The notes under the pieces were generated by a model. That model had not been told where the DNA came from. It saw only the letters and a list, made by a program, of their open reading frames with translations, and made no database searches. A program made the translations under genes and the position numbers. From IMG/VR virus record IMGVR_UViG_3300036792_000104, positions 1 to 44,655 of that record: 44,655 bases of DNA, one strand, 5' to 3'. The stretch comes from a virus. Shown piece after piece: positions 17,037-34,126 of this stretch; the stretch's first letter is position 1; every line of letters starts with the position of its first letter.

Positions 17037-17058
17037 AGGTGATTCGTAGATCTTCAAG

Positions 17059-17132
17059 TGGCGGGAGTGGGATTTGAACCCACGACCTACAGATTATGAG
17101 TCTGCCGAGCTGCCAAGCTGCTCTATCCCGCT
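17059..17132 (-). tRNA. tRNA with CAU anticodon (tRNA-Met)
   Basis: The cloverleaf reads: acceptor AGCGGGA with TCCCGCC, D-stem GAGC/GCTC, anticodon stem GCAGA/TCTGT, loop CTCATAA and T-arm GTGGG-TTCAAAT-CCCAC. The first acceptor pair is an A-C mismatch (1:72). CCA is not encoded. The anticodon stem lacks the three G-C pairs of initiator tRNA, so an elongator Met or a lysidine-modified Ile tRNA is more likely. It is part of the leftward transcript. Confidence 0.92.
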
Positions 17133-32007: not shown

Positions 32008-33078
32008 TTAAGCGATGACTAGCTTGCGCTCCTGAACCGACTTGAGCGCGGCCAGCGCCTTACTGTCATCGTCGGCAGTCTTGCCGAGCGTCAGGTTGAG
32101 CATGTTTCGCTCCATGCGGCCACCATCGGCCACCTGAACCGTACGCTCCCACGTGCGCCACGTGTTGTCGAGCTGCAACAGGCCGAAGCCCGTTCCGTTC
32201 CACGGCTGGACCTTGGGGTCATGCAGCCAAAGTGCGCGCATGGCCTCTCGCTTGTTCTCAGCGATGGTGTAGCCGCGACCCGGCTTGTCAGCCGACTTGG
32301 CTTCCGGCATCGGAACCATTTCGTCAAGCCAGAGGTCGAAGTCCTTATCGGACACTTCCACTGCCTGTAGTTCCTCGGCCATAGCGGCGAAGTCCTCGCC
32401 AGCCTTGAGGGTAAGACCCAGAGTCGATCGGGCCTCTTCCATCTTGGCACACGAATTGCGCGTGTGCTTGAAGCCGACGCGGGTCTGAGCGCCCTGCCGT
32501 GCCATCTCGAACGTGTTGTCACAGACCGCAGCGTCCACGCCGGTAAACCAGGTGGTGAGAAGCGATCCGTCACAGCTAGTCGCACCCGTAAACCACGGGG
32601 TGAATGCGAAGCCGCCGACTTCCCACTGCTCGGGTAGCTTGACCTGATGAAAGGCCACAGCGCCCTTGCGGAGAAGCGCGACCGCCGCCGTCTCAAGATT
32701 CGAGTCGGTGATGGTCGAGAGCGCCTTGTTAATCCACTCATCGTAGCCGTGGATTCGGTAGCCGCTCTTGAAGACGCCGAGGATTTCGCCCCGCGCGTCT
32801 GCGGTGCCCGCGTCGTGAACGCGGATGATGCTCTGTCGTTCCGGGTCAACGACCGGGATTCGGTTGCTGCCATCGGTGAAGACCGAGCTAACCGGGCCTG
32901 AGACGAGCTTGACATCAAGCAGACGCTTGACCTCTTCCACGGGTACCGGGCCATCGAAGTGCGTGCCATCGGTCATGTACTCACCGTTGGCCTTGTTTGC
33001 CCACCACGCAGGACCACGCTCATCGGTGAAGCCGATGCGGATGTTCTCACGTAGCCAGGTCAGAGTTTCAGCAGACAC
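32008..33078 (-). CDS. DUF932 (phage/plasmid-like) protein
   Basis: I choose the GTG at 33078 (VSAETLTWLREN) because AAAGGA lies about nine bases ahead. A GTG at 33096 would place that site inside the gene. The 356-residue protein carries the DUF932 pattern: DVKLVSGPVSSVFTD, YRIHGYDEWI, FTPWFTGATSCDGSLLTTWFTGVDAAVCDNTF, TRVGFKHTRNSC, and WRTWERTVQVADGGRMERNMLNLT near the end. Members occur widely on phages and plasmids, with no settled biochemistry known to me. It is transcribed leftward from the operator-bearing promoters at 33.45-33.59 kb. Confidence 0.85.
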   Translation of the reverse strand: MSAETLTWLRENIRIGFTDERGPAWWANKANGEYMTDGTHFDGPVPVEEVKRLLDVKLVSGPVSSVFTDGSNRIPVVDPERQSIIRVHDAGTADARGEILGVFKSGYRIHGYDEWINKALSTITDSNLETAAVALLRKGAVAFHQVKLPEQWEVGGFAFTPWFTGATSCDGSLLTTWFTGVDAAVCDNTFEMARQGAQTRVGFKHTRNSCAKMEEARSTLGLTLKAGEDFAAMAEELQAVEVSDKDFDLWLDEMVPMPEAKSADKPGRGYTIAENKREAMRALWLHDPKVQPWNGTGFGLLQLDNTWRTWERTVQVADGGRMERNMLNLTLGKTADDDSKALAALKSVQERKLVIA

Positions 33079-33108
33079 TAGGTAGTGTCCTTTCACTTGG
33101 GATGGTTA

Positions 33109-33124
33109 GTGCCAAAATTGGCAC
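33109..33124. terminator. Perfect palindrome GTGCCAAAATTGGCAC
   Basis: This 16-base palindrome lies between the T-arm of the structured RNA and the DUF932 gene. It lacks a T-run, so it may be an RNA processing or attenuation element or a protein-binding site rather than a true terminator. Confidence 0.5.
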
Positions 33125-33181
33125 CGTGGCTAGTGGGGAGTCGAACCCCTAACACGTCTCGTAGTCGCTTGCTGCCAGCGT

Positions 33182-33203
33182 CAGGCAACGGTTTCCCTGA
33201 TCC
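33182..33203 (-). repeat. 22-base pseudoknot unit, copy 1
   Basis: This is identical to the unit at 33279-33300. On the minus strand CAGG pairs with CCTG across a loop containing CCG, which can pair with the upstream TGG (U-G plus two G-C). That gives an H-type pseudoknot inside the CAGCGT/ACGCTG hairpin. Confidence 0.85.
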
Positions 33204-33278
33204 AGTAACGCTGATCTCTTTAGCTTCACTTCTCGAACGATGTGCTCACCCGGTCTAGCCTCGCGGGGTAGGTCTGAC

Positions 33279-33300
33279 CAGGCAACGGTTTCCCTGATCC
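33279..33300 (-). repeat. 22-base pseudoknot unit, copy 2
   Basis: This is identical to 33182-33203, 97 bp away. Here the outer pairing is CGG with CCG, a compensating change relative to copy 1. It lies inside the 10-bp plus 5-bp hairpin at 33262-33325. Confidence 0.85.
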
Positions 33301-33455
33301 GGTAGCCAGACTCGGCTACCCCGCGATGTACTTCCTCTATTCTGTAGACCGGGTGTTTCGCCTCTCGGCTACTGTCCCTCTCTAGCGTCCCCGTGTCTCT
33401 CGACCTTGAGCCCGCTAGGGGCCTTCGCCCCGGTCCCTGTTCTGCTGTTGTACTT

Positions 33456-33485
33456 AGTGTAACAAGGATTCATCTGAATCCATTC
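33456..33485 (-). promoter_or_regulatory. Leftward promoter B with palindrome in spacer
   Basis: On the minus strand, TACACT (33461-33456) is a TAnnnT -10 box. Upstream lies the palindrome GGATTCA-GA-TGAATCC (33481-33466), in the spacer region. The -35 (GAATGG) is weak. It would start the structured RNA near 33449. The layout matches promoter A base for base in spacing. Confidence 0.5.
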
Positions 33486-33560: not shown

Positions 33561-33590
33561 ACTGTACCATAGGTTCGTCTGAACCCACAA
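33561..33590 (-). promoter_or_regulatory. Leftward promoter A with palindrome in spacer
   Basis: On the minus strand, TTGTGG (33590-33585) and TACAGT (33566-33561) are 18 bases apart. The palindrome GGTTC-AGAC-GAACC fills the spacer (33585-33572). A repressor or activator dimer bound there would act directly on the polymerase. Confidence 0.55.
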
Positions 33591-33643: not shown

Positions 33644-34126
33644 ATGGCAGAGATCAGGTCGCACGGACTGTGCGTCATGGGCTGCGGTCGGAAGCCCACC
33701 CACCGGAACAACATGTACTGTGAGTGGTGCTACGACACGTGGCGGCGGGGCGGGTTTGACAAGGTGCCCGTCAAGACCAAGGTCAAGGCAGCGCGGGACA
33801 AGAAGACAGGCAAGATCATCCGCAAGGCCAGTGTCCGAATCCAGTGGAAGTGCCCGCCGGATCACCGGCCGCCCGGTTACCAGAGCATGGCCGAGCTGCG
33901 GCAGCAGACGGACAAGCGGCCGAGGTGCAGCGAGGAAGGTGGATGCCCCAACCTGGCCAGGCATGGCGGGAAGTGTGACAAGCACAACGGGCGCGCTGCG
34001 GCGCGCATAGCCAAGTACCGGGCCGAGGGCAAGACCAAAGAGTGGCAGCAGCGACACGTAGCAAAGGTCGGCACACAGCAAGAGCACGCCCGCGCGGGGC
34101 TGCAAATGGCTGTCTGCGTTGACTGA
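33644..34126 (+). CDS. Zinc-finger-type protein, unknown
   Basis: The 160-residue product has a Cys-rich head (GLCVMGCGRKPTHRNNMYCEWCYDTW), a second cluster (KCPPDH; RCSEEGGCPNLARHGGKCDKHNG) and many Lys/Arg. The design suggests nucleic acid binding through two zinc sites. It is the first gene of a rightward operon running to 36469, driven by the 33608 promoter. No named family is recognised. Confidence 0.75.
   Translation: MAEIRSHGLCVMGCGRKPTHRNNMYCEWCYDTWRRGGFDKVPVKTKVKAARDKKTGKIIRKASVRIQWKCPPDHRPPGYQSMAELRQQTDKRPRCSEEGGCPNLARHGGKCDKHNGRAAARIAKYRAEGKTKEWQQRHVAKVGTQQEHARAGLQMAVCVD

Follow-up and report, generated by a model that had tools for sequence, protein, structure and literature searches.

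tRNA-like structures are a known kind of RNA. The tRNA-like domain of tmRNA (RF00023, RF01849-RF01851) combines an acceptor, a D-loop without a full D-stem and a T-arm, with a long helix where an anticodon arm would be, and the element described here has the same parts. It differs from tmRNA in that G3-U70 and the GGTTTCGAC D-loop are both missing, no tag was noticed, no Rfam match is obtained and the element sits in an mRNA leader.

Known substrates of RNase P include acceptor/T-stem-loop models, the his mRNA, the P1/P7 C4 RNA and the tRNA-like end of TYMV (PMC11143913, PMC12710915). The phage elements share with such substrates (AT1 acceptor-stem + T-stem-loop, his operon, P1/P7 C4 RNA) the tRNA-style stack of acceptor and T-arm; the natural substrates are moreover excised from longer transcripts, as the phage elements would be. 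By contrast, a conserved D-loop and a fixed cassette are added in the phage elements, and their 3' end is AC, not RCCA. A tRNA-like fold within or at the end of an mRNA is also found in the TYMV tRNA-like structures, the mitochondrial t-elements and mascRNA, all of them substrates of RNase P or RNase Z. The phage elements likewise lie within mRNAs, but they are not terminal at a genome 3' end, belong to bacterial dsDNA phages and occur in many intergenic copies.

The cluster M mycobacteriophages Bongo and Rey carry conserved intergenic repeats. These occupy the same intercistronic place, i.e., a structured element before a Shine-Dalgarno sequence, but are long perfect hairpins without T-arm. 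In two cluster M intergenic gaps (L084, L085), long near-perfect hairpins followed by CACACGAGAAGGGA stand at the place of the tRNA-like element. In the literature searched, no description of an intercistronic tRNA-like cassette in phages was found (papers outside it may exist), and no relative was found for the large, maskable form reported here.

The tRNA-like element upstream of the DUF932 gene

The window is the whole of IMGVR_UViG_3300036792_000104, a virus contig of 44,655 nt (44.7 kb). The gene set is of the siphovirus type, and the nearest match of the terminase is Pontimonas phage phiPsal1 (44% identity), Streptomyces phages coming next. A single tRNA gene, tRNA-Met (CAT), is present (17058-17132, minus strand). 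The minus-strand stretch studied (about 33560-33078) is flanked by a plus-strand gene (33644-34126) and the DUF932 gene (Table 1).

Table 1. Features of the minus-strand region upstream of and including the DUF932 gene
Feature	Positions	Strand	Remark
Promoter-like TTGTGG-18 nt-TACAGT, putatively for the leader transcript	33561..33590	-	sequence reading
Inverted repeat GGTTCAGACGAACC, possible operator copy 1	33572..33585	-	exact match to GRTTCAGAYGAAYC
Inverted repeat GATTCAGATGAATC, possible operator copy 2	33467..33480	-	
Leader segment CCCCTAGCG («anti-T»)	33413..33421	-	complementary to TGTTAGGGG (33154-33146), T-arm 5' side; predicted pairing probability 0.98 in the full leader
Leader segment CACCCGGTCTA («anti-D»)	33345..33355	-	perfect complement of the acceptor-strand end and D-loop (33257-33247)
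Leader hairpin (11-bp and 9-bp stems) with motif copy 1	33261..33326	-	z = -5.1
26-nt motif copy 1, TACCGGATCAGGGAAACCGTTGCCTG, in the leader hairpin	33279..33304	-	
tRNA-like element (acceptor, D-loop, long arm, T-arm, discriminator A)	33127..33260	-	sole full-rule match
Acceptor 5' strand GGCTAG	33255..33260	-	
D-loop ACCGGGTGA, closing pair C33253-G33247	33246..33254	-	family consensus ACCGGCAGA
Long arm replacing the anticodon arm, 96 nt	33151..33246	-	
26-nt motif copy 2, TACTGGATCAGGGAAACCGTTGCCTG, inside the long arm	33182..33207	-	
T-arm GGGG-TTCGACT-CCCC	33135..33149	-	
Acceptor 3' strand CTAGCC	33128..33133	-	followed by discriminator A33127 and CG
7-bp hairpin GGTGCCA-ATTT-TGGCACT	33108..33125	-	directly 3' of the element, as in other cassettes
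Shine-Dalgarno AAAGGA of the DUF932 gene	33088..33093	-	from sequence
DUF932 gene	32008..33078	-	GTG start 33078, MSAETLTW; 49 nt 3' of the element

On the minus strand, 33101-33480 folds at z = -5.3, better than 100/100 shuffles, which confirms the structured RNA proposed by an earlier sequence-only reading of the window. The long range of its helices explains why the region was not ranked when fold z-scores were scanned in 160-nt tiles. That reading had named a conserved protein frame over the same bases as evidence against an RNA: two ORFs do overlap the region, and neither has a match in 50,697 phage records.

The canonical T-arm of the same reading is present. The reading had found no complete acceptor stem; such a stem exists nevertheless, its two strands being complementary over 6 bp. 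This acceptor strand was proposed before the D-loop rule was known, and the linker ACCGGGTGA that follows it then matched the consensus ACCGGCAGA of the phage family described below. The idea of a tRNA mimic or tRNA-like RNA upstream of the DUF932 gene thus holds, on the basis of the acceptor, the T-arm and a D-loop that matches a covarying phage consensus.

The full rule (i.e., T-arm, 6-bp acceptor, GG linker and AC) finds one match in the 44.6-kb window and 0 in 300 shuffled windows, the rule having been relaxed to a 4-bp T-stem and an A-A mismatch after the window had been seen. The window element, with its 4-bp T-stem and an A-A mismatch between T-stem and acceptor, is the weakest form that the rule accepts. 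When isolated, the fragment 33260-33125 adopts the fold of the element with no constraint imposed.

A T-arm followed by an acceptor half could also be an identity segment copied from a host tRNA gene, i.e., an attachment site, since the core of an attP is often a copy of a tRNA gene's 3' half. This is very improbable: no integrase was found among the window proteins scanned (part of the predicted ORFs), the element also has a 5' acceptor strand and a D-loop, and a single genome contains many related elements.

The region has no match in Rfam at its thresholds; at E up to 10 a chance miRNA match alone is obtained, and no tmRNA. No tRNA or tmRNA is called by ARAGORN, and neither ARAGORN nor the Rfam tRNA model gives a cloverleaf with anticodon arm. 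The Infernal-type covariance search and ARAGORN, suggested in the sequence-only reading as a check with tmRNA and tRNA models, thus return nothing here. A degenerate tmRNA that lost its tag and kept its pseudoknots, as that reading had considered, would account for the tRNA-like end, the long helix at the place of P2 and the possible pseudoknots, and reduced tmRNA-like RNAs do occur in related phages. We nevertheless hold it to be scarcely credible, given the missing tmRNA D-loop GGTTTCGA and G3-U70 (pair 3-70 is C-G in the window), the absence of any Rfam or ARAGORN match in the region and the position of motif copy 1 outside the tRNA-like element. The weak GACACG/CGTGTT helix, placed by the same reading where helix 2 of tmRNA would be, is absent from the predicted folds.

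The intercistronic family in other phages

Upstream of the DUF932 genes of Rhodococcus phage Shagrat and of viral contig L002, a T-arm can be made out together with a matching acceptor strand. Moreover, tRNA-like elements of about 40 nt are localized between genes in the mycobacteriophages Cuke, Send513 and Thumb and in dozens of viral contigs. In the 40-nt form a 5-bp acceptor leads into an 11-nt linker, in which a GG is invariant; then come a T-arm of 6 bp with the loop TTCGA, the 3' strand of the acceptor and AC. A mechanical scan of the fetched stretches gives 14 elements for Cuke (besides two true tRNAs), 12 for Send513 and about 9 for Thumb, almost all on one strand, compared with about 0 in shuffled sequence. 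These elements have no annotation in the deposited records and no ARAGORN or Rfam calls in the stretches tested. A degenerate pattern is found in at least 120 viral DNA stretches; among the matches listed, several dozen hold elements and the rest are tRNAs or chance. A stricter pattern is found in 7 of 84,980 genomes, 5 of which are Actinobacteria.

Among 80 distinct 40-nt copies, 99.0% of cells pair (65.7% when shuffled), 12 of the 13 pairs show changes in both partners, with a covariation score of 0.818 (0.175 for shuffles, at most 0.152 for slid partners), although the pairing of most positions is expected, because the scan required those pairs. The linker (D-loop) pair 7-13 was never a search criterion. 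It is standard in 80/80 copies with four pair types and is independent evidence for the family structure. Covariation is also seen between linker base 14 and the final base of the T-loop (A-U 62, G-C 8, other 10). Two loci (L148 and L165) have a full 4-bp D-stem instead. The family members are therefore tRNA elbows without anticodon arm. Another arm stands in the place of the anticodon arm at Cuke 34561, L105 and Send513 18643.

The cassette runs from a stop codon over about 8 nt to the element and on to a hairpin, a Shine-Dalgarno sequence and the start codon. For most elements of Cuke, Send513 and Thumb, the distance from the stop is 7-11 nt and that to the next start 40-52 nt; the exceptions are partly genes with apparently wrong annotated starts. 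A hairpin of at least 6 bp within 14 nt 3' of the element is found in 26/35 cases, compared with 85/700 random places.

The window has the same organization. Its T-arm, with a loop of the TTC[AG]AN[CT] type, lies directly before the acceptor 3' strand (33149-33128). The 6-bp acceptor, within the 5-7 bp of the family, is followed by a D-loop of the A, N, Y, G, G type, in which C33253-G33247 fits pair 7-13, and A33246/T33139 are as expected from the covariation of linker base 14 with the last T-loop base. The 3' end is ACG, with the AC of the family, and not CCA; the 7-bp hairpin, AAAGGA and a GTG 49 nt on come next, as in the family (AC, hairpin of at least 6 bp, Shine-Dalgarno, start about 40-52 nt on). 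R1, a covariance model of the 40-nt copies, matches only the T-arm of the window (10.2 bits, E 1.3); the 96-nt arm breaks the model, which does not span it. The window element is best read as a tRNA-like structure without anticodon arm and a large-arm member of the actinophage cassette family, the largest among the examples examined.

The element is not specific to DUF932. The sequence-only reading had considered a regulatory RNA for this gene, and the element is indeed directly upstream of it, but such an upstream element is present at only about 5/80 viral DUF932 loci, and a general tie to DUF932 was therefore rejected.

Two other observations were made in viral sequences. The Rhodococcus phages REQ1 and Shagrat (L003:1464-2200, L006:1839-2190) have in common a conserved noncoding stretch of about 180 nt, probably structured, which lies 3' of the integrase and 5' of the DUF932 operon. 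A further group (33 distinct copies, e.g., L180:9310-9387, L217:7989-8065, L271:9494-9570) comprises reduced tmRNA-like RNAs, about 78 nt in length, with the tmRNA D-loop GGTTTCGA, a P2-like stem, a T-arm and no room for a tag; their pattern matches 48 viral stretches. The alanine identity pair G3-U70 is kept in 33/33 of them, in contrast to the variable remainder of the stem. These RNAs could mimic tmRNA in an alanylated form or inhibit ribosome rescue.

The long leader and its predicted pairing with the element

The 11-bp long-range helix of the sequence-only reading is present, CACCCGGTCTA (33355-33345) pairing with TAGACCGGGTG (33257-33247); the stem of the hairpin that it encloses is of 11 bp and not 10 (33326-33316 / 33271-33261). 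Two perfect 11-bp helices per 381-nt stretch are obtained in 3/1000 dinucleotide shuffles. The leader hairpin 33326-33261 is very stable and directly adjoins the first base of the tRNA-like element. The duplicated unit is real too, but it is of 26 nt rather than 22, TAC[C/T]GGATCAGGGAAACCGTTGCCTG, with one mismatch and a spacing of 97 nt. A pseudoknot in each repeat, as had been suggested, is only one possibility, because each repeat can also form a nested hairpin that has a GAAA cap and a 4x4 internal loop. Because of these repeated possible pseudoknots a type III toxin-antitoxin system was considered; it appears unlikely, the two copies not being tandem and the downstream gene being DUF932. 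The sequence observations of the earlier reading are thus confirmed and its interpretation is partly supported.

No homolog of the window RNA was obtained by DNA similarity (phages, plasmids), by exact motif scans of viral contigs and 84,980 genomes, or in 17 related records; 11 matches to the 16-mer and 25 two-copy matches are all without the surrounding motif. The leader, the long arm and the 26-nt motif are thus without covariation support.

The promoter-like site noted earlier is there, but a strict sigma-70 scan gives no minus-strand promoter. The inverted repeat GRTTCAGAYGAAYC has 2 exact copies, 105 nt apart, each directly 5' of a TACAGT/TACACT box; this pair is a possible set of operators of the leader.

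In the folding model the long leader can pair perfectly with the D-loop and would thereby hide the element. For the full transcript the predicted acceptor probability is 0.00. For an RNA starting at 33345 or later it is 0.99-1.00, the T-arm reaching just 0.27 in the same model. A fold constrained to the element costs 8 kcal/mol. Masking is put forward as a hypothesis, because the model leaves out pseudoknots and D-loop/T-loop contacts. A pseudoknot is conceivable too, in which an 8-bp helix of the leader would be stacked end to end with the acceptor and the leader hairpin.

The region might also be a riboswitch-like, cis-regulatory leader of DUF932, in which the pair of 26-nt motifs binds a ligand or protein and the tRNA-like appearance is secondary. 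The strongest folding signal lies there (z = -5.5 for 33356-33246), the 26-nt motif has a near-perfect second copy and the pairing of the leader coincides exactly with the D-loop. Such a leader would leave unexplained the T-arm, the acceptor, the D-loop match, the AC end and the cassette spacing, which are common to other phages, and it has no Rfam match; we regard it as improbable.

Processing as the proposed function

We lean towards the reading that the element is an RNase P/RNase Z-type processing site, at which cleavage is presumed; the family elements are probably cut marks that split long phage messages. The placement after a stop codon, the missing anticodon and a hairpin as new 5' end fit processing. 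The leader RNA would carry the anticodon-less element just 5' of the DUF932 gene, RNase P of the host would cut at 33261/33260, and RNase Z or exonucleases would act at the 3' end of the element, so that the cut DUF932 message would have a protective hairpin at its start. For other phages, the role of such an element would be to set adjacent genes apart. For the window it is more speculative that pairing of the leader with D-loop and T-arm hides the element until this pairing is lost, possibly upon binding of a factor to the two copies of the 26-nt motif. The full leader, predicted without the element (acceptor 0.00), argues against the processing model, unless the equilibrium is altered by tertiary contacts or a factor. 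The 4-bp T-stem with its A-A mismatch, the ACG end in place of CCA and the lack of homologs for leader, arm and 26-nt motif in the searches made count against it as well.

Processing is favoured over binding without cutting, i.e., an uncut tRNA mimic bound by EF-Tu, the CCA-adding enzyme, a synthetase or a phage protein and controlling downstream translation or stability. Such a mimic would agree with the elbow (D-loop/T-loop) as the most conserved part of the family, and in the sister group of reduced tmRNA-like RNAs the invariable G3-U70 points to a synthetase-linked role for that group. There is no common synthetase identity, however, because the window and most mini elements are without G3-U70, and a new 5' end accounts better for the fixed hairpin 3' of the element. 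This mimic appears rather unlikely.

A bolder reading, which we hold to be less likely than not, is that actinophages punctuate their polycistronic early messages with anticodon-less elements cut by the host, and that the window version has become a switch, masked by the leader until a signal sensed by the duplicated motif frees it. «tRNA punctuation» is known mainly from mitochondria. If the elements are cut as proposed, many phages would use it and obtain separate messages from one transcript without a nuclease of their own. The family is widespread, covaries extensively and is missing from Rfam, from ARAGORN calls and from the deposited annotations examined. The window version suggests that such processing may be regulated too.
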